From Pandoraea anhela (lineage in GTDB: Bacteria > Pseudomonadota > Gammaproteobacteria > Burkholderiales > Burkholderiaceae): a stretch of 64,000 bases of DNA. A program made the position numbers and the translations under genes. How positions within the stretch are numbered: position 1 is the first letter of the stretch; each line of letters opens with the position of its first letter. The stretch is taken from positions 1 through 64,000 of the forward strand of contig NZ_CABPSB010000025.1 in the NCBI RefSeq assembly GCF_902459655.1. The letters are read 5' to 3'. Below, piece by piece: positions 417 through 17,438 of this stretch. The notes beneath the pieces were generated by a model, which was not told where the DNA came from, made no database searches, and was given only the letters and a program-made list of their open reading frames with translations.

Positions 417-425
417 CGATCCTGC

Positions 426-475
426 TGGTCGGAGCGATAGGATTCGAACCTACGACCCTCTGATCCCAAATCAGA
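426..475 (-). tRNA. 3' part of tRNA-Pro(UGG), probable att site
   Basis: On the minus strand this reads an anticodon stem-loop with 5-base stem arms and loop TTTGGGA (anticodon TGG, proline), a variable region, a T-arm with TTCGAAT in the loop, the acceptor 3' strand, discriminator A and an encoded CCA. The D-arm and 5' acceptor strand are absent: beyond 475 the sequence turns into an unrelated T-rich stretch. A tRNA 3' half beside a tyrosine integrase is the usual product of island integration into a tRNA 3' end. The intact tRNA and the other att copy were not seen in this window. Confidence 0.85.
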
Positions 476-532
476 TTTTTTGCAATTCCACCCAGATCAT
501 TGACGCTCACGAATATACGTAAGCATTTGATA

Positions 533-2653: not shown

Positions 2654-3205
2654 CTACGGCACAATCCTTATCGCCCCCGACTCGATATTTACAAAGACGT
2701 ATTGAAAACCAGGCTCGGCTCTCGGTGCATAGCTCGTGTCTACGGCATCATCGTTAACCAACAGAAGCCGATATGTCGCAGCGCTGCCGTTCGAGCGCAG
2801 CTTCGATACCGCCTTTTGCTTCTTGGGACCGAAAAACGAAGGCGCCACATTGAACGCCTCTCCAACTAGCGTGCGGCCTTGGTGATCCTTCCCTCTTATA
2901 TCGAAGCCGTTGTGGTCTTCGTTGCCGAATTCGACGAGATAACTGTCAATGCCAAACGTTCCCGCGCGAATCAGGCCTGCAATGCCCCGCAATATGACTA
3001 GGTCCGACATGATGCGATTCGCGGCCTCGAAGAGACTGACACCCGGGTACGGCCCGTGCGCCAACTTCTCCCGCTTTAGTGCCGTGAGCAACGGGATTCC
3101 ACGAAGCCCGTGGATGGAATCACCTAGACTGGCGAGTGTTTCCAAAAAGCTCTCTGTTATTTGATTGACATTGTCTGCGGTCAAGATTCGTTCTGGTTGC
3201 TGCAT
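2654..3205 (-). CDS. Unassigned 183-residue protein, possible nuclease-like fold
   Basis: I do not recognise a named family. The protein starts MQQPERIL and has a mostly helical N-terminal half (to about residue 85) and an alpha/beta C-terminal half. The stretch YLVEFGNEDHNGFDIRG followed about a dozen residues later by LVGEAFNV and then a lysine-rich segment (GPKKQKAVSK) has the spacing of acidic-acidic-lysine residues seen in PD-(D/E)XK-like nucleases. That is only a pattern, not a domain call. It lies on the same strand as the helicase operon but downstream of it, after a ~600-bp gap, and may be separate island cargo. Upstream of the ATG the ribosome site is weak. Confidence 0.55.
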   Translation of the reverse strand: MQQPERILTADNVNQITESFLETLASLGDSIHGLRGIPLLTALKREKLAHGPYPGVSLFEAANRIMSDLVILRGIAGLIRAGTFGIDSYLVEFGNEDHNGFDIRGKDHQGRTLVGEAFNVAPSFFGPKKQKAVSKLRSNGSAATYRLLLVNDDAVDTSYAPRAEPGFQYVFVNIESGAIRIVP

Positions 3206-3801: not shown

Positions 3802-5145
3802 CTATAAATACCGTCCCTTGTCAGTTGCTGTAACCTTGGCATTTCCGTCGTCAATAATTTTAAGTGGAACCTCGCCAACGCCAATCGCACGTTCGACGAG
3901 CAATGTGTCGCCTGTAGTCACTAGCAACTCCTGAAGCTTGCCAAAATCTCCGCACCAAAGGGTTTCGACGTCTTTGTCGCGCGAGGTGTCGTGATTTTTC
4001 GTCAGTGCAACGGCCCGAACTTGGAGCCGGCCCGTTTGGGTGTGGCCACCGAGTTCCACCCCATAGTCAGGGACGGCTGGATTCTTGACGACGACTCGTC
4101 CATCGCGTGCCCACGCCGTCTGCATTCCCTCATTGACCTCGTAGCCGAGCCGAGCCAGACCATTCAGGATTACGCCTCGCCTAGCCTGTGCGGCTTTTCG
4201 GTCCTGCTCCCGTGCGATTAGCTCGCGACATTCAGCTGCAAGTCGCCCGATCTCATTTAGCGTCGTTGCTGGGCCGCACAACCTAATTTGGCCGACGAGC
4301 GCTTTTGCCCCAGCGCTAGCTTCGGCACTCATCTCCGAGGCAAGCTCGTGAAGCTCCTCAATAGCCGCGTTATGCGCGCGAGACATTCTCACTGCACTTG
4401 CGAGATCAAGTATCAAGCTGTCAAGCAATAGGTTGCGGCGGGACTCGTTGACGTCCCTTTCGATCAACCGTAGCTTTTCCGCAAACGTGGCGACTTCGGA
4501 TTCATCAAGGAGCACCTGCGCTTCTGCGATTTGACGGTCGACTCGGTTAATGAGCGGATTATGCATCCGCGACATGTTGGCGGCCTTCCACTCTCCAAAA
4601 TCCTGAGTCCTTTCGCCCTCCAACAATCGGCCGGCAAGCTCCTTCTGCGCCACACTGATTTCTCGCGCGGTTTCCGGTACTAGCAAGCTGAATCCGCGAG
4701 CAAGCAAAACATCTGCGTCTAAAACCTCTGCACCCGAGGCAACAAGGGCAAGCTTTGATACCAAGTCTTGCGGCAGTTCGACGCCCTTCGACTTGAGCGC
4801 AGCCAACAATGTCGTGGCGCTGTCTTGCCCTTGTCTCCGGCGCTTAACAAGCTGTTCTGCTTTATCTATCGCGATGGCTTGGCGTCGAATCACATCGTCC
4901 TTTAGGAAGGCAATTTCGTCCGTAACCTTCTTTTGCAGCTCCATGAATGCGTCTGTCGCAATCAAGGCAGCAAGCCCGCGTTGACGCGCTCGGGTCGCCG
5001 CAATCTCTTCGGCAGAAAGCTCCCCGATTCGTTGTCCAGCCACGGCCCAAGCGACTATCGCCTGATCGAGCCGCCGAAGATGCCCCTCACAAATAGCAAG
5101 CATCTCTTCGCGGGTAACAATGCGAACCACCTTCGGACCACTCAT
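3802..5145 (-). CDS. Coiled-coil protein with MSGPKVV start, last gene of the helicase operon
   Basis: This 447-residue protein has no catalytic motif that I recognise. It opens MSGPKVVRIVTREE and is then dominated by charged, leucine-rich helices up to about residue 330 (several coiled-coil-like stretches, for example around 60-120 and 205-250). A small more globular C-terminal part (about 335-447) is rich in beta-type sequence. No signal peptide or membrane segment is seen. Its ATG shares bases with the stop codon of the helicase-nuclease gene (ATGA, 5142-5145), so the two are translationally coupled and probably act together. A scaffold or sensor role in the complex is inference only. Its length and helical content would suit a structural adaptor. 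Confidence 0.85.
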   Translation of the reverse strand: MSGPKVVRIVTREEMLAICEGHLRRLDQAIVAWAVAGQRIGELSAEEIAATRARQRGLAALIATDAFMELQKKVTDEIAFLKDDVIRRQAIAIDKAEQLVKRRRQGQDSATTLLAALKSKGVELPQDLVSKLALVASGAEVLDADVLLARGFSLLVPETAREISVAQKELAGRLLEGERTQDFGEWKAANMSRMHNPLINRVDRQIAEAQVLLDESEVATFAEKLRLIERDVNESRRNLLLDSLILDLASAVRMSRAHNAAIEELHELASEMSAEASAGAKALVGQIRLCGPATTLNEIGRLAAECRELIAREQDRKAAQARRGVILNGLARLGYEVNEGMQTAWARDGRVVVKNPAVPDYGVELGGHTQTGRLQVRAVALTKNHDTSRDKDVETLWCGDFGKLQELLVTTGDTLLVERAIGVGEVPLKIIDDGNAKVTATDKGRYL

Positions 5146-8100
5146 GCGGCAATCTCCAATTTCAGAGCGGTGTAAATCGCCGCTTTCAACCGAGCTCTTT
5201 CTTCCTCAGCGTTGTGATACCAACCTTGCGATGAAACCCGGTGAAGGTTTGGAATGGCGCGCCGCAATACGGACGGGCGCCAGATTTCACGTGCGCGGGC
5301 TCGTTGTAGCAACGGGTGACGCGGAGCGTCACATTCGATACCGATTGCGTACAAGCCCGTTTCTGGATCGGCGATGGCAAAATCAAGTCCGAAAGCGTCG
5401 CCTTCCTGTGCACTGACCGGAGACAGGCCAAGGTCGCGAAGGAACTCCAGGACATCCGTCGCGAAGCCATCATTGTCCGCAGTTTCGTACAGTTTTGCAT
5501 GCGCGCGCTCGCTGCTCATCCGTCCGAGGAGCGAGCGGCCACTTGGGAATTCTCCGTTGGAAATTGCGCGCGCGTACTCCAAATATCCCTGAAGATAGTC
5601 ACGCGGGATGGCCGGCTTTCTCTTGGTATTTAGCATGTCGGAAATGTCGCGGATTGGCATCGAAGTGATCAGTACGACCTTCTTTCTGGCACGAGTTACT
5701 GCGACATTCAGGCGCCGCTCCCCGCCCCTTTGCCCTAGCACGCCGAAATAGCGCTTGAACGCGCCTTGGTTGTTACGCCCAAACGTCGTCGAGAAAACGA
5801 TAACGTCGCGCTCATCCCCTTGGACATTTTCCACGTTCTTGACGAATACACCCATGTCTTCGCCACCGTCGGAGCGATCAGCCTCTTCCCGATAGGCGTT
5901 ACGGAAATCCTCATCCTCTTCTGCACGAAGCTCAAGCCGCTCCTCAATCAGGTTAGCTTGCTTGAGGTTGAAAGAGACGACACCAACGGACGGTCGTTGG
6001 TCGTAAGGCGTCCTCCATAGCTCGGCAAGGTATTCGACAACACGGTCCGCTTCGTCCGAATTCGTCTGACGTTCATAGACACCGTTTACCGGAATCAGCT
6101 CAAGCGGCTTGACCGCTCGAATCATTGCTTCGGGGTGTCGCACCGGCACACTCAGCTCGTTGTCGTAGAAAGCAGCGTTCGAGTAACCAATCAATTCACG
6201 GTACTCAGACCGATAGTGGATCTGCAGCGTGGTTACAGGCAGGGAAGTCCGCGCCATTTGAAGGAGGTCAGGGCAATCCTTGATCTCACGACGATTCCAG
6301 GTGTCCTCGAAGAGTTCGCGTTCCTCCTCCGTAGCATCTTCGTCGAGAGACTCCCCGTCATAATTATCAGGCTCGTCGCTGTCTACACGGCCGGAGAAGA
6401 AACTCGCTGGCGGCATCTGCTTTTCGTCCCCGCTGACAACAGAAATGCTGCCACGGAAGAGCGTCGGAATGGCGTATTCCACCGGCATTTGCGACGCTTC
6501 ATCGTAGACCACAGTATCGAACAGATTTGATTTAAGCGGCAGAACGCGGCTCGCCACATCCGGGTTCATCATCCAGACCGGACGCAGCGCCATCAATCCG
6601 AGCCCCGTACCTAGCTCGATGAATTCGCGCAATCGGCGAGAGCGGCGCCCCGTCAGGCGTGTCACATCCTCCCAGTCTCGGGCTGAGCCAAGTCTGCTTC
6701 GGTCGATGCCATTGCGTAGTATTTCCCGATTAAGACGGCGCATTTCCTCGTCGGCGTTTGCCAGAGCTTCCACCTTTGCCGCCGTCTCCCCCCTATCAAG
6801 GAGGAGCTCCGGAGTTTCCTGCTCGAAACGACGCTTCCAGCCCAGTCGAGCTTCACGATTGATCAGTCGACGCACTTCCCAGTCGATGTCTTCTGGGGCG
6901 ATACCTGCGAACGCCTCCGCGTGTGGCCGCATCACTGCGAAGACCTCAAGGGCTTGAGGATTGAGATGCTTCGCCCGCGTCCGGAACTGTTGGAATGCGG
7001 CAAGTGTGGGCAGCGCGTCGTTGATGCGGTTGAGTGGCGTTTGATAGGAGAGATTGTCCGCGACTGCGCTTCGACACGCGTCCGCTAACTCAGGAACGAT
7101 CCACTCTTCGAGTACGCGCAATGCCTCGAGACTGTGCTGACGGGCGTTATAGCGAATGAATGCTGTTTCAAATCCATCGAGTAGCTGTCTGACGGGCGCC
7201 TGATCTCCAGTCATTACGGCGGAATCAAACTCGTCGCCACGCGGCGCAATGGAGAGATGCTGCGAAAGCTCACGGATCTCTTCAAGTCGCCTAAGGCGGC
7301 TCAAACACTCCTCTGCGAGTGTCGGGCCACACGTCTGTGAGACGGTATCCAACTGTAGCGATTTGCTCGTCGCGTTTAACGCCTCTCGCTCTTGCCGCCA
7401 CGACTGTTCAAGGCGTGCAGCCGCCAGCAGGGCTCGAAGGGCGACATCCGTCGTCGGGACCCCACAACTCGCGAGGTATTTTCTCAAGCCGCTACGTCTG
7501 ATGTACGTGGCGGGATTGATGCGACTAATGAACGTTGGAACTTGTGTGGCAAGTGTCGCTCGCATTTCGATGGCATTCAGCTCGACGAGGGGCAATGTAG
7601 CTAGCGCGGGTGACAGCGTTTTGTCATAAGCGCCGCCGTCGATGGCCAGCAAATTCTCATGGAGCTGCTTTAGTGAGGCGTAATGCTTATGTCCCGGGGC
7701 ATCCTCTCTGTTTGCCGGACGAAACAAAGGCAGCCATTGTGCAAGACGCTTACGCTGTGTCTCATCGAGGTTTACCAGTCGGATAGCGTTGCTATCGAGC
7801 CAGGCACGATATGGCGCTGGATCTTCGACGTCAAAGCGGGCTGGATGAGCTGCAAGCGTTTCGACACGTAACCGCTCGGCTTCGAGGAAGCGAACGAAAA
7901 CGTCGGTGTACTCCGCGATTGTTGCGGGGTCGGTAGCAAACGACTTCAGTTGGACCAGCGCGCTCCCTTCAAATTTCGCTGGTAGCCAATAGCGCGCCAG
8001 CGGGGCGCACTGTTCCTCAAGCGCCGTTAGCGAGGATATGTCCAACTCGGCCAACTTCCCTCTCAGTTGGGGAACGCTCAATGGCGCTTCGCCAGCTTCC

Positions 8101-11100
8101 AACTGGATCAATTCGCCAAGCAAGGACCGGTAGCTCAAGCCGGTTGACTCGTCCACATGGTGGAGCGCTTGATGTTGTCGGTCGAGCTCACCCTCAAGCG
8201 CTTCGATCCTGGCGGCCATGCGTTCACGTTGGCGCGTCCAGTTGGTGTCAAACGGTGAGCCCCGGTTGACTGCATCGAGCTGCTCTCGAACTGCTCGGAT
8301 GGTTGGCTCTCGATCCTTATTCACATCGTTGATCATTACAATGCGATCACCGAGCCCTTCTGCGACCAATCGCTTGTGCACGACCTCGAGTGCCGCATGC
8401 TTCTGGCAAACGATGAGCAAGCTCGTGCCTCGCCCAATTGCGTCTGCAACCATGTTGACGATCGTCTGGCTCTTACCAGTCCCGGGTGGCCCTTCAACCA
8501 GGAGACCCGGACCTTGTCGCGCCTTCATGATCGCGGATTCTTGAGACGGGTCGCTGGAGACGGTAAGAAAACGTTCGAGCTCTGCGGCAGGGCCGTCGGG
8601 TGCCTTCTGCTCAGACTTGTCATCGAGTCGCAACATTGACGCAAGCGAGGTTCCCGCCGGCGATAAGACCTTCAATTGGCGCAAGTCCTCACCGATGGCT
8701 TGGCCGGCGAAGTCTACATGGAAAAGCACCGCAGAGCAGGCGAGACGAGGCTCGCCGGCGGGCACCTCGACCGCTGGCGACGGCAGCGCGCCAAGCTGAC
8801 GCCGCTCAGTGTTTGCCAACATCCCAAATGCGTCAATGACGTCGGCTACCTTCAGGGCCGAGCGACCCAATACATCATCGGCCGCGGCACGCCATGCTTT
8901 CACCGCATCCCTTCCTAACAGCCCCTCAAGCGCAGGATTCAAGCGCACCTCTTCGCGCTCACAATCGAAAGCCAACGCAACCTGACCACGAGCGCCAAGT
9001 TCCATCAGAAGTTTGACAGGCCAAAGCAGGATTGGAGTAATGCGTGGACGCGAGCCACTACGGCTGTCCCGGGTATGCAGGAACGGGAAGCCCAGATACA
9101 TCCCGTCAATACCGGTATCTCGCTTGTACAAAGAAGTTTGACGATGGAGCGTGTTCAGTCGGCTCTCCAGCGTCAGGTCTGCTCCGAAAATGGCGGGGTC
9201 GATGGAAACCGACTGTGCATTGCGTTGAAGTAAGTGCTCGAGCAATGCGGTACATGAATACCGCTCGCTATTCAGTTCATGAACGTCAACACGACCGGTC
9301 GTCTTGCCGATTGTCATGCGCACCAATGGACCGCGCAGTACGGTTGTGGCGACCTTCTTTTCGAAGAATTCCAGAATCTGCGACACATAGTGCTGCTTTT
9401 GCGGCTCCAGCCACTGCTCGGTTGGCACGGAAAGCAAAACGAGGACCTGGTGCAATGGAAGGCGTCGCTCCAGGCGAAAATGCTCAGCCCAGCCATCAAT
9501 CAAACTATTGCCAGTGTGCGCGAAGCCGGCGATTCGGTCGTCGACCCTGCGAAAGAGTTCCATGCGGGATTGCGCGAGCTCATCGCGAGCCACTTCCTTG
9601 TCAAAAGTGAGAATCTGCTCGCGCTTGGCAACGTCGGTTGCCTGATTGAGAATTTCGTCAACGCTGCGGAACTGCGTGATCTTTGCGCTCAGAAGGACAA
9701 TAAGGTCTTCTTCGCTGACGATGCGACGTTCCGATAGCGAAAGCAAGCCCGGGTGCGTCGAATCGGGTAAAAGTAGGCGCCGCGCGTCCCATTGCGCTGC
9801 GAGTTGGGCTCGGGACGTGGAAAGTACTGCGATTCGCAGCATGTCTTCATCCAGCTCAATCGCGTGATTGTGCGCGCGGTTTCGGACTTCATCGGCGCGC
9901 CGCTGAAGCCTCGAGAGCCATGTCTCAGTCTGCAAGCGTTCAAGGAAGGAGGGGACGGCCCCAGTTACCAAGTCGTAACCTTCTAGCGGGTTGCTGAGCA
10001 ACCAGCCTGGGGTGACAATCTCGCCACGCAGAATAAGTGGCATCTCGGGATTCAACAGCTTTAACGCGATCATCAGACGCCAGTCGTCGTCCACGCCATC
10101 GAGTAGCACCACTTGACGCAGGCCAGCGAGTTGTTTTGCCAAAACGCCAGCCTGTTCGGCCCAAGTGACCACAAGACCTCGACTGAGATGGTCGCGAGCC
10201 TCCTCCCAGTTCTCTCGTTCCGCTGCCGCAAGCGCGAACATGCTAGGCTTTCGATACTGTATTGCGCCGAGCGTGATACTTGCGCCTTCCGCTGAGTCGG
10301 TCTCGGTGGTCTGAGACTCTGGAGCATCGACCGGCTTACCATCAAGCCACGCCTTGACCTGGGGCCATTGCCAGCGTTGATGCCGATCACGGGCCAACAA
10401 ACCTCGCAGAAGCAAGTGAAGCGATGGATCAAGGTCGTCGGGCAGCGTGACGCCATTTGCGAGCACGTGAATCAGAAAGGCTCGCGGATTGACGCCTTCA
10501 AAGCACTTACCCGCTGTCAGTTGCTCAAGCAGGATCATGCCGAGGCTCCACCAGTCAGACGCTGCGGCAACGCCGCCAGCGATGGCTTCGGGTGCCATGT
10601 AACGCGTCGTTTCGAGCGGAGAAACGATGTCGAGATCGAATTCTGACAGTCGGGCCGATCCGAATCCGCTGATCACCAGATCGAGCGGATCTTTACTACG
10701 CACAAGCAATGTGCCCGGGCGGAGGTCGCGGTGTCGCAAGCCTGCTTCCGAAAAGGCGTTGAGTGCCTGTCCAAGTTCATCGACTACGTGTCGGATCGTT
10801 GCAATGTCCCGCAGAGCAATGCCCGCGTCGGCAAGCGTTCCGCCGCTAAGCTCCTCTGCGACTTCATAAGCCCGAGTATCCCACCGGCCGGTTGCGATGA
10901 TCTCCGGAACATGTTCGCGAGGAAGACGACGGACGACATCGTAGACTGACGTGTCTGGTTCAGCGCCGTCGCGGTATAGCGTAAGTATTGCCTGCCGGCC
11001 GGTATTGCTGTGCTGGGCAATGAACCGCTCGCGCACACCGTCCGTACTGGAAATCTGCCTGAGCAGGCGCCAACCGTCGATTTGCGTTTCGGCGTGTGTT

Positions 11101-11441
11101 TCGGATGTACCGCTAACGATATTCGTTTCACCAAAACTAGCGGCATCACTTTTGGCACTTTCAACGATGTTCGGATCTGCCCCGCACTCAAGGCACATCA
11201 GGTCTCCGTCGTTCATCGTGTGCCCGTTTGTGCACGTCTGTTGCGGGGAAACTCTCGGGCCCAAATCGGGCTCAGGGTCGCCCAGGCCATCGCGGGTAAC
11301 GATTTCCTGTTCGCGCCACCCGCGCGCCCGGATTGGCAGGCCAGACAGGTCCCAGTCACATTTGTCGCCGGCGACGATGCCCGCGCAGAACCATTCATCA
11401 ACAGACCTTTCGGTCTTGCAGTTCGGGCAAAAACGCATCAT
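5142..11441 (-). CDS. Zinc ribbon - pseudokinase - COG1112/DUF4011 helicase - PD-(D/E)XK-like nuclease fusion
   Basis: This is a 2099-residue multidomain protein. Two short zinc-ribbon-like parts come first (Cys5/Cys8 with Cys19/Cys28; Cys70/His74 with Cys83/Cys86). A protein-kinase fold spans about 121-368 (HRD 237-239, APE 283-285). It lacks the VAIK lysine, has Thr244 for the usual Asn and has GFG (259-261) for DFG, so it looks catalytically dead. A long DUF4011-like region leads to a superfamily-1 helicase with Walker A GPPGTGKS (983-990), a ~650-residue insert, Walker B DEAS (1646-1649), GDEKQMPP (1670-1677), HYRS (1741) and NVAVTRARK (1911). The C-terminal ~120 residues resemble the Vsr/DUF3320-type nuclease associated with these helicases (Asp2019, Glu2035-Cys-Asp2037). 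COG1112 helicases with kinase parts occur in Mokosh defence systems. The start may be either of two adjacent ATGs; AGGAAA lies upstream. Confidence 0.9.
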   Translation of the reverse strand: MMRFCPNCKTERSVDEWFCAGIVAGDKCDWDLSGLPIRARGWREQEIVTRDGLGDPEPDLGPRVSPQQTCTNGHTMNDGDLMCLECGADPNIVESAKSDAASFGETNIVSGTSETHAETQIDGWRLLRQISSTDGVRERFIAQHSNTGRQAILTLYRDGAEPDTSVYDVVRRLPREHVPEIIATGRWDTRAYEVAEELSGGTLADAGIALRDIATIRHVVDELGQALNAFSEAGLRHRDLRPGTLLVRSKDPLDLVISGFGSARLSEFDLDIVSPLETTRYMAPEAIAGGVAAASDWWSLGMILLEQLTAGKCFEGVNPRAFLIHVLANGVTLPDDLDPSLHLLLRGLLARDRHQRWQWPQVKAWLDGKPVDAPESQTTETDSAEGASITLGAIQYRKPSMFALAAAERENWEEARDHLSRGLVVTWAEQAGVLAKQLAGLRQVVLLDGVDDDWRLMIALKLLNPEMPLILRGEIVTPGWLLSNPLEGYDLVTGAVPSFLERLQTETWLSRLQRRADEVRNRAHNHAIELDEDMLRIAVLSTSRAQLAAQWDARRLLLPDSTHPGLLSLSERRIVSEEDLIVLLSAKITQFRSVDEILNQATDVAKREQILTFDKEVARDELAQSRMELFRRVDDRIAGFAHTGNSLIDGWAEHFRLERRLPLHQVLVLLSVPTEQWLEPQKQHYVSQILEFFEKKVATTVLRGPLVRMTIGKTTGRVDVHELNSERYSCTALLEHLLQRNAQSVSIDPAIFGADLTLESRLNTLHRQTSLYKRDTGIDGMYLGFPFLHTRDSRSGSRPRITPILLWPVKLLMELGARGQVALAFDCEREEVRLNPALEGLLGRDAVKAWRAAADDVLGRSALKVADVIDAFGMLANTERRQLGALPSPAVEVPAGEPRLACSAVLFHVDFAGQAIGEDLRQLKVLSPAGTSLASMLRLDDKSEQKAPDGPAAELERFLTVSSDPSQESAIMKARQGPGLLVEGPPGTGKSQTIVNMVADAIGRGTSLLIVCQKHAALEVVHKRLVAEGLGDRIVMINDVNKDREPTIRAVREQLDAVNRGSPFDTNWTRQRERMAARIEALEGELDRQHQALHHVDESTGLSYRSLLGELIQLEAGEAPLSVPQLRGKLAELDISSLTALEEQCAPLARYWLPAKFEGSALVQLKSFATDPATIAEYTDVFVRFLEAERLRVETLAAHPARFDVEDPAPYRAWLDSNAIRLVNLDETQRKRLAQWLPLFRPANREDAPGHKHYASLKQLHENLLAIDGGAYDKTLSPALATLPLVELNAIEMRATLATQVPTFISRINPATYIRRSGLRKYLASCGVPTTDVALRALLAAARLEQSWRQEREALNATSKSLQLDTVSQTCGPTLAEECLSRLRRLEEIRELSQHLSIAPRGDEFDSAVMTGDQAPVRQLLDGFETAFIRYNARQHSLEALRVLEEWIVPELADACRSAVADNLSYQTPLNRINDALPTLAAFQQFRTRAKHLNPQALEVFAVMRPHAEAFAGIAPEDIDWEVRRLINREARLGWKRRFEQETPELLLDRGETAAKVEALANADEEMRRLNREILRNGIDRSRLGSARDWEDVTRLTGRRSRRLREFIELGTGLGLMALRPVWMMNPDVASRVLPLKSNLFDTVVYDEASQMPVEYAIPTLFRGSISVVSGDEKQMPPASFFSGRVDSDEPDNYDGESLDEDATEEERELFEDTWNRREIKDCPDLLQMARTSLPVTTLQIHYRSEYRELIGYSNAAFYDNELSVPVRHPEAMIRAVKPLELIPVNGVYERQTNSDEADRVVEYLAELWRTPYDQRPSVGVVSFNLKQANLIEERLELRAEEDEDFRNAYREEADRSDGGEDMGVFVKNVENVQGDERDVIVFSTTFGRNNQGAFKRYFGVLGQRGGERRLNVAVTRARKKVVLITSMPIRDISDMLNTKRKPAIPRDYLQGYLEYARAISNGEFPSGRSLLGRMSSERAHAKLYETADNDGFATDVLEFLRDLGLSPVSAQEGDAFGLDFAIADPETGLYAIGIECDAPRHPLLQRARAREIWRPSVLRRAIPNLHRVSSQGWYHNAEEERARLKAAIYTALKLEIAA

Positions 11442-11458
11442 TGCTGAAATTTCCTGTC

Positions 11459-12103
11459 TTATCTGTTCTGCGCTTTGTCAGCGCTGATCTGGACTCGATG
11501 GCCCTGATCGGTCAATAGGTCGCGTAATCGCTGGAAGTCGCCCCGGTTCGGTATTCCCGCGAACCAGACGCTACCGTCCTCATCGAACATGACGTCAAGC
11601 GACTTGTCGCTCTCGGTCAGCTCTCGTTCATACTGTGAATAGAGTGCTCTGCCACGCTCCGTGAGCATATGCAGCCGCTGGTTGTCACTACCGCGAAGAG
11701 GACGGGTATGCGGGGCATCTATTTCAAACGGGTCGGTAACGAGCGCGTCAATTGCGCCATTAACCCGTTCCAGAGTGCCTGCGAGCGCCCCAAAGGGGTG
11801 GCCGCTGTAGACCAGAACATCGGCGCTAGATGCTTCTTGCAGGGCGCCGACAAGCGCGACTAGAGCATCCGGCTGATCAAATGGCTCTCCCCCGGAAATG
11901 GTGAAACCGTCGGCTTGAGGTAGCCAGATACTGATTTGCTCCAACACCCGCCCGACTGTCGACTCGCCGCCGGTCATAGTCCACGTATCGGCTGATATGC
12001 ATCCCGGGCAACGTATGCTGCAGCCTTGGAACCATATTCCAATCCGTCTTCCTGGTCCCAAGGATGTGACGGGGAAATGCAAACGCGACAGACGAATGTT
12101 CAT
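11459..12103 (-). CDS. NrdG-like radical-SAM / 4Fe-4S protein of the helicase operon
   Basis: The 214-residue protein carries the cluster motif Cys28-X3-Cys32-X2-Cys35 (CSIRCPGC) and the SAM-binding GGEPF (about 70-74), as in anaerobic ribonucleotide-reductase activases and QueE-like small radical-SAM enzymes. The later LRGSDNQRL stretch is typical of this family. No glycyl-radical enzyme or ribonucleotide reductase is nearby, so its partner is not the usual one. Its start codon overlaps the stop of the AAA+ gene (12100-12103) and it ends 17 bp before the helicase gene. I infer that it modifies a component of the system, or a nucleotide, rather than feeding general metabolism. Confidence 0.9.
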   Translation of the reverse strand: MNIRLSRLHFPVTSLGPGRRIGIWFQGCSIRCPGCISADTWTMTGGESTVGRVLEQISIWLPQADGFTISGGEPFDQPDALVALVGALQEASSADVLVYSGHPFGALAGTLERVNGAIDALVTDPFEIDAPHTRPLRGSDNQRLHMLTERGRALYSQYERELTESDKSLDVMFDEDGSVWFAGIPNRGDFQRLRDLLTDQGHRVQISADKAQNR

Positions 12104-13932
12104 GACTGTTGGTGCTTGTGCAATTGCAGTTCGCCGTCGGCAATGTTGGTGACTAGAAAGCTATCGCCGGGCTTCGCATCTTGATCGAACATGCCGCGCG
12201 CGAGCGGGTTGATCAGATGCGCCTCGATCTGGTTACGGATGCCGCGACCACCATTGGAAAGATCACTTAGGCACCGATGCTTAAGAGCAACCACCAACGG
12301 TGGGTCCAGTTCGACAGAAATTCCCTGAGAAGCAATGTCGTCGAGAACGGCGCCGATCATCTGGTCAAAAATATCTTGCGCGACGTTCTCCCGGATGAAA
12401 TCGAAAACAATAATGTTCTCGCCAATCCGGTTCAGGATTTCGGGACGGTTGAGCACCAACTTAAAGTGCCGTTGAATTTCAGAGAGCACTTTCGTGCCAA
12501 TGTCGTCAAAAGAATCGTCTGGGACGACATTGGGTACTCGTTGTCCAAGCTCGTCCTCTCGGAATATCCCCAGATTCGAGGTGAATACGATCAGCGCCTC
12601 GGAAAAGTACACCCTGTCTCCTCGCCCTGACGTGAGCACGCCGTCGTCGAGAATTTGCAGAAATTTATCGAGAATTCGCGGGTGCGCTTTTTCGATTTCG
12701 TCGAAAAGCACAACGCTGAACGGTCGCTCCCGAATTGCGTTCGTCAACTCTCCGCCAACGTCATAGCCGACGTACCCAGGCGGCGCACCAATAAGCCGTT
12801 GGTCAGAATGCTCAGAGCTGAACTCGGACATATCGAAGCGAATATATGCGCTCTCGTCGCCGAAAAGAAGGCTGGTGAGCGTCTTCGCAAGCTCCGTCTT
12901 ACCCACGCCCGTCGGTCCAGCAAGAAACGCGACGCCGCGCGGCCTGTTGCCTTTGCGCTGTACACCAACACCAGTCATAGCTCGCTTGACAAGGTCAAGC
13001 ATGTGCGTCACTGCATGTGTTTGTCCCTTAACCCGCTTGCGGATCGTAAGCTCAGCGTTGCGGATCTTCTCGCGGTCAATTCGAAGCCACGGGTCTTCCG
13101 TGACGCCAACCTTGTAGCGTCTGACGGCATCGGAAATCTTGCCGATGGGAACGCTTTCGACACGAGCGAGGGTAGCGATTGCATTCATGTCAGCGAGCAA
13201 CAGGCCCTCGGTACCATCGATGAATGCCGACTCGGCATCTTCCATGATGGCTGGTGTTGCCTCTCTTGAGCCAGGCACTCCTCGCAGAAGCGCTGGTGAA
13301 AGCGCGCGCCTAGCCGCGCTGTCGGGTTTGGAGACGGGCACATGCCTGATTCTCGGATTGCCAATAAGCAGCCAGTCGGGCAAGTCGCTTTCCTTGTCAA
13401 CAACCCAAAGTACAGTATTGAAGAATGGGCGACGCTGTTCGCCGGCCGGGCGTGGTGTGCACGTGTGTGAAAGAACGAGTGCACGCGTAAAGAGATTGTG
13501 TTCCGCCGCGCTCAGTGACTCCGTCCGGACGGCTAGTCGAGAGGCAAAGTCCACGACAAGCGCTATCGGCGGGCCCTCCATCGCAACAAGTCGCTCTAGG
13601 CACGCGGTTAGCACGTCGATTCCGCCAGGCGCCGAATTTCCAACTGGGGTCAAACCGAGACGCTGTAGCGTATCTTCGCCTCGTTCGACTTGATGTATGC
13701 GGCTTTCCGGAATGCCAAATCCGGATACAGGATTCCAGACCACCAACTGAGCATAGCCGGCTTCGCCAAGGTTATCAGCGAGCGTATTCACAAGCGATTG
13801 CGCCGTGATCATTTCTGGCGCGACCTCGCAGGCCTGCAAATCTCTAACATTTCCGGAAAGGACAAACTGACTCTTCAACGGCAAGAATCGCAGTAGGTCT
13901 TTCAACCAGCGAGGATTTTCAAAGGCAGGCAT
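12100..13932 (-). CDS. ClpB/ClpA-type AAA+ ATPase with a P-loop-less first domain
   Basis: This is a 610-residue protein and the first gene of the operon. The C-terminal half is a complete Clp-type AAA+ module: Walker A GPTGVGKT (339-346), pore loop GYVGY (386-390), Walker B VVLFDE (407-412), sensor 1 TSN (451-453), arginine finger region RPEILNR (496-502) and sensor 2 GGRG (561-564). The first ~250 residues look like a second AAA fold that has kept Walker-B-like IALVVDFA (123-130) and sensor-like VLWVVDK but has no Walker A. The Clp N-terminal repeat domain and the middle coiled coil are missing. The tyrosine pore loop implies substrate threading. No ClpP-type peptidase gene is adjacent, so remodelling rather than proteolysis is more likely. 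Confidence 0.92.
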   Translation of the reverse strand: MPAFENPRWLKDLLRFLPLKSQFVLSGNVRDLQACEVAPEMITAQSLVNTLADNLGEAGYAQLVVWNPVSGFGIPESRIHQVERGEDTLQRLGLTPVGNSAPGGIDVLTACLERLVAMEGPPIALVVDFASRLAVRTESLSAAEHNLFTRALVLSHTCTPRPAGEQRRPFFNTVLWVVDKESDLPDWLLIGNPRIRHVPVSKPDSAARRALSPALLRGVPGSREATPAIMEDAESAFIDGTEGLLLADMNAIATLARVESVPIGKISDAVRRYKVGVTEDPWLRIDREKIRNAELTIRKRVKGQTHAVTHMLDLVKRAMTGVGVQRKGNRPRGVAFLAGPTGVGKTELAKTLTSLLFGDESAYIRFDMSEFSSEHSDQRLIGAPPGYVGYDVGGELTNAIRERPFSVVLFDEIEKAHPRILDKFLQILDDGVLTSGRGDRVYFSEALIVFTSNLGIFREDELGQRVPNVVPDDSFDDIGTKVLSEIQRHFKLVLNRPEILNRIGENIIVFDFIRENVAQDIFDQMIGAVLDDIASQGISVELDPPLVVALKHRCLSDLSNGGRGIRNQIEAHLINPLARGMFDQDAKPGDSFLVTNIADGELQLHKHQQS

Positions 13933-13941
13933 GGCATTTTT

Positions 13942-13970
13942 TAACGACTTGAAAGTAATTCAAGACGTTA
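13942..13970. promoter_or_regulatory. Palindrome 1 upstream of the AAA+ operon
   Basis: Twelve-base arms TAACGACTTGAA (13942-13953) and TTCAAGACGTTA (13959-13970) are complementary except for one position, around a 5-base spacer. It lies about 10 bp in front of the operon's start codon and abuts a TATGAT box on the minus strand (13975-13970). A repressor bound here would cover the transcription start. Confidence 0.6.
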
Positions 13971-13975
13971 TCATA
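13970..13975 (-). promoter_or_regulatory. Candidate -10 box of the defence-like operon
   Basis: TATGAT on the minus strand between the two palindromes, about 40 bp before the AAA+ start codon. No strong -35 is visible, which would suit a regulated promoter. Confidence 0.4.
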
Positions 13976-13995
13976 GCCTGCCACGCACCGGCATG

Positions 13996-14016
13996 CTAAC
14001 GACAAGACGTCGTTAG
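13996..14016. promoter_or_regulatory. Palindrome 2 upstream of the AAA+ operon
   Basis: Perfect inverted repeat CTAACGAC (13996-14003) / GTCGTTAG (14009-14016) with a 5-base spacer. It shares the outer TAACGAC half-site with palindrome 1, 26 bp away, suggesting two operators for one regulator. The regulator is not obvious among the neighbours. Confidence 0.6.
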
Positions 14017-14249
14017 TTGTCACGTAAAGATCACGTTCTAATGGCTTGATTGTTCGAGACTAACCGGCACGGCATAGCCGATTTTTTTAGTCGTCGCCAG
14101 CAATTGGACTGGGTGGAGAAGCAACTTCACGTAGCGAGGGGCATGGTTCAAGCTTGCTGCTCGTTCCTAGTGGGCGCAACGACGCTTAGCATGAGTACTT
14201 GGAAGATAGTAATTTTCGGCAAATAAGCCGTATTAATCGGGGATCTCTT

Positions 14250-15008
14250 ATGGGCGCGTTGGGAAGTACTTTTGTTGTTATTGGTGTGCTTACTGTAGTG
14301 GTCGGCGTATTCGGTTTTGTCGACACACGCAAGGTCGATCGTCGATTTAGAACTGGCTATAAGAACAATGAGCCGGACACAAGAAACTTCCCTCGAGCTG
14401 GCAGAAGAATACTGTGGGGCGTAGGGATTTGCATTGTCGGTGCGGCACTGAACAATCTCATAGGAGCGCATAGTGTTCCCGGTCCGGCGAACTCGCCGCA
14501 AGTCACGGGCGCTGCTAATCGACTAGAGCAGCTTGAAGCCCCCCCACGCTCGGTTGGAACTGCGCCGCAGTCCGCCGAGTCTGTGCAAGAACAATCCGTC
14601 AAGGGCGTCCAATCGACAAACGAGCGAGTTGTAACTTCGTCCCTTACTCCACACCGCGAACCTCAGCATGCGTCTTGGGACGGCCAACAATCCGGGGGCG
14701 CCCAGACCTTTGTGACGATTTTTGATTGTGCTCGCGCATCATCAAGCGACGAATTGCAGATTTGCAACGATCCAGGGCTTGCAGCGATGGACGTTGAGTT
14801 GGGACAGATGTATCGGACAGCGTTGGCATCTGTAGCGGATCCCGGTGCTCTCAAACGTTCGCAGTTGGATTGGTTGTCATCTCGTCGTACATGTGGCGAC
14901 AACCTGAACTGCTTGCGGCAAAAGTATGGCGAAAGAATTGGTCAGTTCAATGGCTCGCTGGGCGCTGCGCCGCTACCTTCCTTGCGGTTCGAAGCAACGA
15001 AGCCATGA
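14250..15008 (+). CDS. Membrane-anchored protein with C-terminal LprI/DUF1311-like domain
   Basis: The ATG at 14250 is chosen because GGGGA lies seven bases before it; a TTG at 14199 would add 17 residues. The ~252-residue protein has two hydrophobic segments near the N terminus (about 2-25 and 53-72). A Pro/Ser/Gln-rich linker follows, and then a C-terminal domain (about 155-235) with FDCARA, ELQICNDPGLAAMDVEL and four cysteines, as in DUF1311/LprI lysozyme-inhibitor-like proteins. The domain would face the periplasm. Transcription diverges from the AAA+ operon, so both could share the palindrome region. Codon use is more AT-rich than in the core-like genes further right. Confidence 0.75.
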   Translation: MGALGSTFVVIGVLTVVVGVFGFVDTRKVDRRFRTGYKNNEPDTRNFPRAGRRILWGVGICIVGAALNNLIGAHSVPGPANSPQVTGAANRLEQLEAPPRSVGTAPQSAESVQEQSVKGVQSTNERVVTSSLTPHREPQHASWDGQQSGGAQTFVTIFDCARASSSDELQICNDPGLAAMDVELGQMYRTALASVADPGALKRSQLDWLSSRRTCGDNLNCLRQKYGERIGQFNGSLGAAPLPSLRFEATKP

Positions 15009-15224
15009 CCGGCTGATTCGCGTAGCTGGGCTGTTGCCGATTGGTTCGAGCGCGACGTATCCGTGATATTGGGCGCCAGCCGCTTATGCCCAATACACAT
15101 GTATCTGCATTATTTGACGATTAGGAGGATGACCGCCTCCAAATCATGGGAGCTTCGGCACAGCCAATACAGGATGTAGCTGGCGTTGAATGCCGTGGCT
15201 AAAGAATAAAGCAATGAGGTGAAT

Positions 15225-16148
15225 ATGGAATCTGCGCAGGACAAGATCACCGGAGAAATCGTTGAAGCCGAGCAACTTTGGCTCATCGCATCAGTCGACA
15301 AGGACCGATACGTGTGCCGCGGGTGTGGAGTCAAGCTCACGCCCGCTGCTTATCGACCAGAAAACGTGGTCCGCCCCTACTTCACTGCAAGGGACACCGA
15401 TCACAGGCCGAACTGCGATGTCGACGGGGAGCGAAAGCTGGCTCGCAAGGGCAAGAAGCAACGCCTAAGCACACCGAGGGACGGATTCCCTGCCCCGTAT
15501 CCGTCAAAGCTGGTCCTGCGCGATCGACGCATCATTACTGACGGGCCAGACTCCGAAGACAGTGATGCGACACGTCGGCGAGACGCAAGCGCCAGACGAA
15601 CGACTGGCAGCGACCAAGATACTCCGACAACAAGTCGTCGCCGTGCGGCAAACACAATTCGACCAATCTGCCGGACGTTCATAAACTTCCCATACGACCG
15701 AGATCTAGAACTAGATGTGCCTGGCGTCCTTGCCACAAAGTACATTTCCGTGTTCAAAAAGCTGAAGTGGGACGAACTAGTCTCATACCCGGACGCTCGG
15801 ATCTTCTATGCAGCCATTCGGTGGAGTAAACCCGTCGAATCAGACGAATATCTCGAGATCATTGTGGACGCGGGTGAACGCGATCAGGAAAAGCGTCTTA
15901 CACAGGGGCACCGCATTCGAGTCGAATGGGCAGAATGGAGCAAGGCGAAACGCACATACGTTCGCAATGAGATTGAAGCTGCTCGCAAGGAAGCGATTGC
16001 GGCAAAAAACAGCGATGCGAATGAAAAGGGATATCTGTTCTTTATTGGAGAGCAAGACGCCGGAGACGCATCGCTATTCCACGTAAACGACCACCGATTA
16101 ATCTGTTGCCTAGTTGACGAAATAACCTACCCCACACTTGCCAGGTAA
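15225..16148 (+). CDS. Island cargo protein with N-terminal zinc-finger-like motif
   Basis: The start at ATG 15225 is preferred over GTG 15219 because GAGG (15216-15219) lies five bases upstream. The ~307-residue protein has YVCRGCGVKLTPA followed by RPYFTARDTDHRPNCD at about residues 27-65. This Cys-X2-Cys...His-X3-Cys arrangement is like the zinc module at the front of CoiA-like and other nuclease-associated proteins. A charged linker (about 95-145) separates it from a C-terminal globular part without recognisable catalytic residues. The family was not identified. Its position between the defence-like operon and an IS marks it as cargo. Confidence 0.65.
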   Translation: MESAQDKITGEIVEAEQLWLIASVDKDRYVCRGCGVKLTPAAYRPENVVRPYFTARDTDHRPNCDVDGERKLARKGKKQRLSTPRDGFPAPYPSKLVLRDRRIITDGPDSEDSDATRRRDASARRTTGSDQDTPTTSRRRAANTIRPICRTFINFPYDRDLELDVPGVLATKYISVFKKLKWDELVSYPDARIFYAAIRWSKPVESDEYLEIIVDAGERDQEKRLTQGHRIRVEWAEWSKAKRTYVRNEIEAARKEAIAAKNSDANEKGYLFFIGEQDAGDASLFHVNDHRLICCLVDEITYPTLAR

Positions 16149-16292: not shown

Positions 16293-17141
16293 CTAGAGAG
16301 TTCCGGCTTCAAGGTGGGCAAGTCGGAACTCACCCGGAGTCAAATCGCCTAGTGAACTATGCGGTCTGAAGTCGTTGTAATCCTGTCGCCAGCCTTCGAT
16401 CTTTTCTCGGGCATCGTCCAGTGACAGAAACCAATGCACGTTCAGGCATTCATCCCGAAAACTGCCGTTAAATGACTCGATGAACGGATTGTCCGTGGGT
16501 TTGCCGGGACGGGAGAAGTCCAACGTTACGCCATTTTCATACGCCCAGTGATCCAGCGCATGAGAAATAAATTCGCTCCCATTATCGACCTGTATCCGTT
16601 TCGAGGTACCTCGCAGCGCTTTTAGATGTCCCATCGTTGCCACCACATCGGCTGCCTTCAAGGCGTAATCGACGGTAATCGCCAAGCTCTCCCGACTAAA
16701 GTTATCGACCACAGTTAAGGCCTGGATTTTCTGCCCGTTGAACAACTGATCGGCCACGAAATCCATGCTCCAGCACGCATTTACCGTAGAGATTTCGGGG
16801 CGCTCCATACGGTGTGCCGCAGCGACACGACGGCGAGGCCGCTTACGCCTCAGGTTCAGCCCCTCTTCAAAGTAGATTCGGTAGGTCTTCTTGTGATTGA
16901 TCAACCAGCCTTCGTGGCGCAGTAGAACGTGAATGCGCTCTACGCCGTAGCGTATCCGAGTCTCGGCAATCTCCAGGATGCGCCGACGCTCGGCACGGTC
17001 ATCACGTGGGCTCAGCACATAGAAGTACGTGGCCTGGCGTAGCTGCAATAGTGCTGTCGCACGCCGGATGCTCACCCGATACGCTTGAATCAAAAAATCA
17101 GCCAGCTCGCGCTTACGAGCTGGCTTCACAGCTTTTTTTGC
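16293..17141 (-). CDS. IS3-family transposase OrfB, produced by frameshift from OrfA
   Basis: This is the DDE transposase/integrase catalytic part, about 282 residues, with an HTH_21 region (around YGVERIHVLL), WSMDFV, DNGSEF and FIESFNGSFRDE supplying the D-D-E residues. It has no good start of its own. The frame is entered by a -1 slip at an A7G run (minus strand 17139-17132), where OrfA reads CAA AAA AAG and OrfB reads GCA AAA AAA GCT. The open frame extends further upstream (to 17312) but that part overlaps OrfA and is not transposase-like. The gene looks intact. Confidence 0.85.
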   Translation of the reverse strand, partial: AKKAVKPARKRELADFLIQAYRVSIRRATALLQLRQATYFYVLSPRDDRAERRRILEIAETRIRYGVERIHVLLRHEGWLINHKKTYRIYFEEGLNLRRKRPRRRVAAAHRMERPEISTVNACWSMDFVADQLFNGQKIQALTVVDNFSRESLAITVDYALKAADVVATMGHLKALRGTSKRIQVDNGSEFISHALDHWAYENGVTLDFSRPGKPTDNPFIESFNGSFRDECLNVHWFLSLDDAREKIEGWRQDYNDFRPHSSLGDLTPGEFRLAHLEAGTL

Positions 17142-17438
17142 ACCGCCTCCTGAAGCAGTTGCTTGTCGAGGCTTAGGTCGGCCACCATGCGCTTGAGTCG
17201 GGCGTTCTCCTCTTCGAGTTGCTTTAAGCGCCGCAACTCCGAGACTCCGAGGCCGCCGTACTTCTTCTTCCAGTTGTAGAACGTGGCTTCGGAAATACCC
17301 ATCTTCCGACACACTTCTGCCACCGTGGTACCCAGTTCGGCCTGCTTCAGCGCGAACGCGATCTGCTCTTCCGTGTACCTAGATTTCTTCATGCAAACCT
17401 CCCGCCCGTCAGGGCTTCAAATTTGCCAGAAATCTCTA
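16294..17438 (-). mobile_element. IS3-family insertion sequence, apparently complete
   Basis: OrfA and OrfB lie on the minus strand with a frameshift window between them. Imperfect inverted repeats bound them: TAGAGAGTTCCGGC reading inward from 16294 and TAGAGATTTCTGGC reading inward from 17438 (12 of 14 identical). The left repeat overlaps the OrfB stop codon. I see no clear target duplication, so exact ends remain provisional. The right end lies close to the truncated transposase at 17474, suggesting insertion into, or recombination with, an older IS. Confidence 0.7.
17126..17392 (-). CDS. IS3-family transposase OrfA
   Basis: An 88-residue helix-turn-helix protein (VAEVCRKMGISEATFYNWKKKYGG) followed by the leucine-rich dimerisation stretch ELRRLKQLEEENARLKRM typical of IS3 OrfA. 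It binds the element's ends and, through -1 frameshifting near its 3' end, supplies the N terminus of the OrfAB transposase. Confidence 0.9.
   Translation of the reverse strand: MKKSRYTEEQIAFALKQAELGTTVAEVCRKMGISEATFYNWKKKYGGLGVSELRRLKQLEEENARLKRMVADLSLDKQLLQEAVQKKL

Follow-up and report, generated by a model that had tools for sequence, protein, structure and literature searches.

A conserved four-gene Clp, radical-SAM and pseudokinase-helicase-nuclease operon of Pandoraea anhela as a candidate anti-phage system

Among described systems, Mokosh includes both a kinase and a helicase and, to our knowledge, neither a Clp protein nor a radical S-adenosylmethionine (SAM) enzyme. DolB of Dodola is ClpB-like, with partner genes that differ from those considered here. 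DUF4011-helicase defense proteins or candidates are further catalogued as Hhe, ProA and PDC-S37. Here we describe a four-gene operon that resembles each of these in part, found in the window, the whole 64,000-nucleotide stretch analysed, at the start of contig NZ_CABPSB010000025.1 of Pandoraea anhela. The four-gene set is real, strictly conserved and apparently unnamed. We put at roughly 60% the probability that it is a four-protein anti-phage (conflict) system, which integrative islands would carry in at least some of the bacteria that have it. Our best reading of the sequences is that a helicase-nuclease effector would be gated by an unfoldase, a radical-SAM enzyme and a pseudokinase, making this an undescribed defense system.

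All four genes lie on the minus strand, in the transcription order Clp, radical SAM, kinase-helicase-nuclease and coiled coil. Gene 1 (12100-13932) encodes a Clp/Hsp100-type ATPase of 610 amino acids (aa), gene 2 (11459-12103) an NrdG-like radical-SAM enzyme (214 aa), gene 3 (5142-11441) a kinase-helicase-nuclease protein of 2099 aa, and gene 4 (3802-5145) a coiled-coil protein (447 aa). The first three were assigned from open reading frames (ORFs) and Pfam, and gene 4 from its ORF. The first-pass annotation, made from the window alone, had reported four genes in the same direction with 4-base overlaps at 12100-12103 and 5142-5145 and a 17-base gap at 11442-11458. These are exact on rechecking the ORFs, and its domain calls for the proteins are upheld by Pfam.

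Relatives were collected with the Clp N-domain alone (alignment A1) in one genome per species, and 84,980 species yielded 333. We took the 80 of these most similar to the window sequence, a sample that leans to close relatives and includes some near-identical strains; two pairs of duplicate loci were merged for counts of distinct rows. By tblastn, all parts of the four proteins occur in a single order in 77 of the 80 loci, and 74 loci have four full-length frames. Two of the exceptions run into a contig end, and in the third, a metagenome bin, the radical-SAM gene is reduced to a decayed remnant. Broken frames affect gene 3 in two loci and gene 4 in one. The earlier concern that homologues of the four genes might rarely co-occur elsewhere is thus allayed. 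Spacing falls between -60 and 120 bases at 78/78 junctions of Clp with radical SAM, 77/78 of radical SAM with gene 3 and 76/78 of gene 3 with gene 4, the last being exactly -4 in 67/78. Since one order is kept in so many loci and the 4-nucleotide (nt) overlap of genes 3 and 4 is exact in most, the arrangement is not due to chance. Pairwise distances of the four proteins correlate with r of 0.90-0.94 (77 distinct rows), to which shared descent contributes, and shuffled distances reach at most 0.23.

Gene 3 encodes the putative effector. Zinc-ribbon-like Cys pairs come first, then a pseudokinase (residues ~120-370), and a middle region separates the pseudokinase from a DUF4011 match (757-840), which is followed by an SF1 helicase (~964-1930) and a MTES_1575/Vsr-like nuclease (1993-2089). 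The nuclease domain scores 62 bits against a Pfam cut-off of 38.2, and its acidic residues are kept (D2020 in 79/79 and E2036 in 78/79 distinct rows); by these measures the C terminus qualifies as a predicted nuclease of the MTES_1575/Vsr-like family. Active-site residues of both helicase and nuclease are near-invariant across relatives. The label pseudokinase, given at first pass, fits well. Of the 79 distinct rows, 75 have Thr, 3 have Ser and 1 has Val in place of the VAIK Lys, while at the DFG Asp position 66 have Gly and only 2 retain Asp, so the two residues by which an active Ser/Thr kinase would be recognized are together found in none; the HRD Asp is kept in 77.

The gene 1 product has a degenerate first AAA tier (~1-275) that lacks a P-loop and a complete second tier of ClpB type, with a P-loop, Walker B and the pore loop GYVG. 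None of 82 distinct Clp rows has a P-loop within the first 285 residues, and all 82 have one beyond. The predicted structure (residues 4-609) aligns with both tiers of ClpC, ClpB and Hsp104. On this model gene 1 encodes a two-tier Hsp100 protein without a P-loop in tier one, and so departs from the usual definition of two-tier Clp/Hsp100 proteins by a P-loop in both AAA tiers. Active-site residues of the second tier are near-invariant across relatives. Clp proteins that dock on ClpP (ClpA, ClpX, ClpC) carry a docking loop of IG[FL] type; a simple search for this motif at residues 451-500, a test of sequence motif only, found it in 0/84 Clp rows. The Clp N-domain had no match in a search of solved-structure sequences.

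Gene 2 belongs to the radical-SAM superfamily on its motifs, CxxxCxxC and GGEP, each kept in at least 95% of 82 rows (two of which are repeats). It passes the Pfam cut-off of PF13353 (78.4 bits against 22) and does not reach that of PF04055 (23.2 against 29.5), and its score of 71.7 bits against a curated cut-off of 126.1 places it outside the NrdG activases. By Pfam, no glycyl-radical enzyme is encoded among the four genes, which would fit a target among the system's own proteins. One candidate was the N terminus of the gene 4 protein, which starts MSGPKVVRIVTREE. An MSGPK start occurs in 72 of 80 distinct coiled-coil rows (window excluded), seven Enterobacterales rows begin MSSS or MSAS, and one further row is partial and stands outside this tally. 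We rejected MSGPK as the target, since the Enterobacterales lose it and keep the radical-SAM gene; the model also speaks against it, with residues 5-10 forming a strand and aligning jointly with the C-terminal domain. A structural role for this N terminus is likelier. The predicted gene 4 structure combines the N-terminal strand with a C-terminal strand/helix domain that is weakly KA1-like. A search of solved-structure sequences with the coiled-coil protein gave no believable match, designed helical proteins topping the list.

The Clp/radical-SAM core also occurs in other architectures. In type B the order is coiled coil, Clp, radical SAM and kinase, and the helicase is absent; the upstream coiled coil was seen in five loci and the kinase in seven. 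Lys, HRD and DFG are intact in 7/7 of these kinases, and an 'LLVR..PLDLV'-like segment is common to the pseudokinase and most of them. From these two features the pseudokinase looks like a degenerate branch of the type B kinase family. A hydrophobic segment was noted by eye near the end of two type B kinase proteins (L020 and L022). Locus L133 continues past coiled coil, Clp and radical SAM with a PP2C phosphatase and a kinase whose motifs are intact (12593-16010), possibly a reversible phosphorylation circuit around the core.

Type C was seen in two genomes from the same order as the window (L134 1668-11777 and L135 1631-11614) and is a candidate system in its own right, in which genes for a helicase, a PIN-type protein, a coiled coil, Clp and radical SAM follow one another. 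Its helicases are Mokosh-like, with MkoA scores of 327 bits in L134 and 321 bits in L135. The C-terminal PIN match reaches 59 bits in L135 and 20.1 in L134, below the cut-off of 21.9, and similarity to MkoB (36 bits) was seen in the PIN-type protein of L134 only. No further type C system emerged, as two weak new matches fit no type C query. Type D (two loci) has an upstream coiled-coil ORF and Clp, with no radical SAM detected by tblastn in the stretch examined. Profile comparison of the coiled-coil proteins of types A (the four-gene version) and B with those of C and D was not significant, and C against D gave E 0.00038 with a probability of only 36; it is position and layout that suggest kinship of the C and D coiled coils with gene 4. 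Since relatives pair Clp and radical SAM either with a motif-intact kinase or with a Mokosh-like helicase and a PIN-type protein, the core looks reusable with different partners.

Distribution is patchy. In the window's order 13 of 399 genomes match A1. By neighborhood, three have the present four-gene version, six the kinase-type layout with the kinase seen, and two the Mokosh-like layout; two kinase-type loci are cut by a contig end, one after radical SAM and one after Clp. Eight of 398 genomes of the phylum match, in a draw that overlaps that of the order. One genus has matches in 13 of 98 genomes, with the neighborhood known for a single genome (G591), whose copy appears broken, its matches ending within the helicase after the initial part. 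Copies of the system reside on large plasmids. The coiled-coil protein was found in 11 plasmid records and the Clp N-domain in eight, and four of seven plasmid loci fetched have four-gene matches, one with a stop in the Clp stretch and another with matches in pieces. Two more loci hold only the end of gene 3 and gene 4, and one only part of gene 4. No relatives were found among 50,697 phage records, and the operon had no megablast match in E. coli genomes. A single IMG/VR contig (L155), the sole relative in viral contigs, encodes the Clp N-domain at 54% identity.

The window itself bears out the tRNA-Pro att fragment and the island integrase proposed at first pass. The 59 nt at 418-476 (minus strand) are a tRNA-Pro 3' fragment and probable att site: the genome has the same 59 nt at another place, in a stretch that contains an intact tRNA-Pro(TGG) gene. 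Beyond the fragment lies a tyrosine integrase (613-1833, plus; Pfam), probably the element's own. Because the tRNA strand is minus, the element would extend to the right. The contig begins where the window does, and a 27-base core of the tRNA segment occurs once in the 64-kb window, with no second copy. Element ends and integrases close by, here and in PB120, could mean that the operon serves maintenance or transfer of the integrative element itself. We consider this very improbable, as similarity to the window's integrase occurs in the flanks of only 4/80 loci and clustering of 690 flanking ORFs of at least 90 aa gave no fifth conserved gene, the largest family being present in 7/80. Between integrase and coiled-coil gene lies a 183-aa ORF (2654-3205, minus) to which none of Pfam, PADLOC and NCBIfam gave a match at E <= 1. 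Upstream of the operon, two ORFs on the plus strand (14199-15008 and 15219-16148) have no Pfam match at E <= 0.001, and an rve-type transposase ORF follows at 16293-17312.

A second tRNA-Pro setting is found in Pseudomonas, which contributes 23 of the 80 loci, 21 of them searched for tRNA-Pro. In four of the 21 the operon shares a contig with an intact-length tRNA-Pro(GGG) match, the Clp gene and the match being 17 to 54 kb apart; in the other 17 it lies on a separate contig. In two genomes (G777 and G778) it is flanked by a tRNA-Pro match and a 47-nt 3' fragment. The intact tRNA-Pro of G777 was confirmed by ARAGORN, and the island between it and the fragment, the one island whose gene content was read, spans ~36 kb (contig 133, 69500-106000). 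It carries McrBC and several PADLOC candidates, among them PDC-M18A/B and a PDC-S36-like NOV_C protein. A further protein of 1715 aa contains two helicase modules, and a DUF927 primase-like protein and an integrase are also present. The tRNA-Pro of the window is a different isoacceptor (TGG), which indicates repeated association rather than a single inherited site. A genus-wide tRNA-Pro link in Pseudomonas is ruled out, as in nine of the 21 genomes, all with the tRNA on a separate contig, over 60 kb of contig extends to either side of the operon, which is hence away from tRNA-Pro.

In P. aeruginosa PA7, an IHF/HU-family gene lies at 2519382 and a tRNA-Pro(GGG) at 2520102-2520178. The Clp N-domain of the operon occupies 2548990-2549760 of the minus strand, which turns the coiled-coil end towards the tRNA. 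The PAO1 copy is presumably PA2725-PA2728. PA2727 and PA2728 are listed jointly under replication, recombination and repair in one paper, which is consistent and proves little. The cDHS1 passages of Johnson et al. 2023 (PMC10250203) give one flank of this P. aeruginosa region as translation genes, ihfA, merR and tRNA-Pro, and the right flank as a small hypothetical gene, then a large DUF4011 gene and then one for a radical-SAM protein. Judged from gene content and place against those passages, three of our four genes are apparently this core flank already in print: the order is the same, and the PA7 operon likewise faces tRNA-Pro and the IHF gene. The passages differ from our description in treating the flank genes as core markers, present in every isolate, and in mentioning no Clp gene; they neither name nor test these genes. 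They also discuss a founding mobile element that seeded the cDHS1-like region, leaving its construction open, and the copies between tRNA-Pro and its fragment are a direct candidate for such an element.

The core status given to the flank genes in those passages cuts both ways for a defense role. It would suit housekeeping or stress-related quality control of nucleic acid or protein, for example the clearing of stalled or aberrant complexes of nucleic acid and protein, without phages as the target and with defense neighbors merely using the same site. Several further observations weigh on that side. Hsp100 partners fit such a role, kinase-type relatives apparently sit amid housekeeping genes (by eye), and the Clp tree largely follows taxonomic order (14 changes against a minimum of 11), indicating moderate rather than rampant transfer. 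The nine Pseudomonas genomes with the operon away from tRNA-Pro point the same way and lower our confidence in the anti-phage interpretation. We nevertheless hold quality control to be doubtful, since elsewhere the system is patchy, copies sit inside tRNA-Pro islands and on large plasmids, and the effector's kin are defense proteins or candidates. The anti-phage interpretation is favored by conservation as a unit, the correlated distances, near-invariant active sites, defense-type kin, island settings and patchiness, and by two further genomes in which a Mokosh-like helicase accompanies the Clp/radical-SAM core.

If the operon acts in defense, the SF1 helicase and C-terminal Vsr-like nuclease would be the effector against foreign or aberrant nucleic acid, with the N-terminal pseudokinase as a non-phosphorylating regulatory handle. 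The coiled-coil protein could dock on the pseudokinase, possibly via its KA1-like domain, and couple it to the Clp protein, whose complete threading motor in tier two would remodel the complex. On infection, Clp might pull this coiled-coil partner off and thereby permit nuclease action, or it might remove the nuclease from the wrong DNA. The radical-SAM enzyme may modify one of the system's own proteins, priming the switch. Protein unfolding and radical-SAM modification would then join the control of a helicase-nuclease immune effector, and a function would be assigned to genes that serve as core landmarks of a well-studied Pseudomonas defense hotspot. A bolder idea, which we offer tentatively and think somewhat likelier to be wrong than right, is that a radical-SAM enzyme and an Hsp100 unfoldase whose first tier is dead, in most cases joined by a coiled coil, form an undescribed core that acts as a general switch for kinase, pseudokinase-helicase-nuclease or Mokosh-like helicase/PIN outputs. 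Post-translational radical chemistry would in that case control an immune nuclease, and the operon may have been the founding cargo of cDHS1 at tRNA-Pro.

As to known systems, the kinship of the helicase with DUF4011-helicase defense proteins, suggested at first pass, is supported by the PADLOC scores of gene 3 (PDC-S37 484, Hhe 225, MkoA 163 and MkoC 93 bits) and by 495.5 bits to ProA (NF058533). The earlier remark that the set matches no named system also stands: searches of libraries and of the literature, supplements and preprints lying outside the latter, turned up no such set. The scores could instead indicate a catalogued family (ProA/PDC-S37, Hhe or Mokosh) that has the other three genes as passengers. 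We regard this as quite unlikely, as passengers would hardly stay ordered in nearly all loci, nor retain their motifs. The ProA score is about a third of the curated cut-off of 1500, and Hhe (NF042953) gives 329.4 bits against 2000; with both cut-offs missed, gene 3 is filed under neither ProA/PDC-S37 nor Hhe. ProA and PDC-S37, like gene 3, have an SF1 helicase followed by a MTES_1575-type nuclease, but the stretches of gene 3 that match them best (945-2094 and 957-2093) omit the N-terminal pseudokinase, and this operon has three partner genes. The literature searched did not reveal where the name ProA comes from. Hhe shares DUF4011-type helicase-nuclease similarity with gene 3, whereas the pseudokinase and partner genes belong to this operon. 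Mokosh has a similar SF1 helicase, but MkoA is not the best PADLOC match of gene 3, and the other three operon proteins have no Mko match that would stand for a separate MkoB or MkoC gene; the type C relatives are a nearer bridge to Mokosh than this operon. DolB of Dodola shares the ClpB-type second tier (gene 1 match of 65 bits, PADLOC), but the match spans residues 277-454 and leaves the first tier out. For helicase-nuclease effectors the partners described here are unusual, and what is new is the Clp protein with no P-loop in its first tier, a kinase that has apparently degenerated while its relatives keep the catalytic residues, and a Clp/radical-SAM core that also occurs with other partners.

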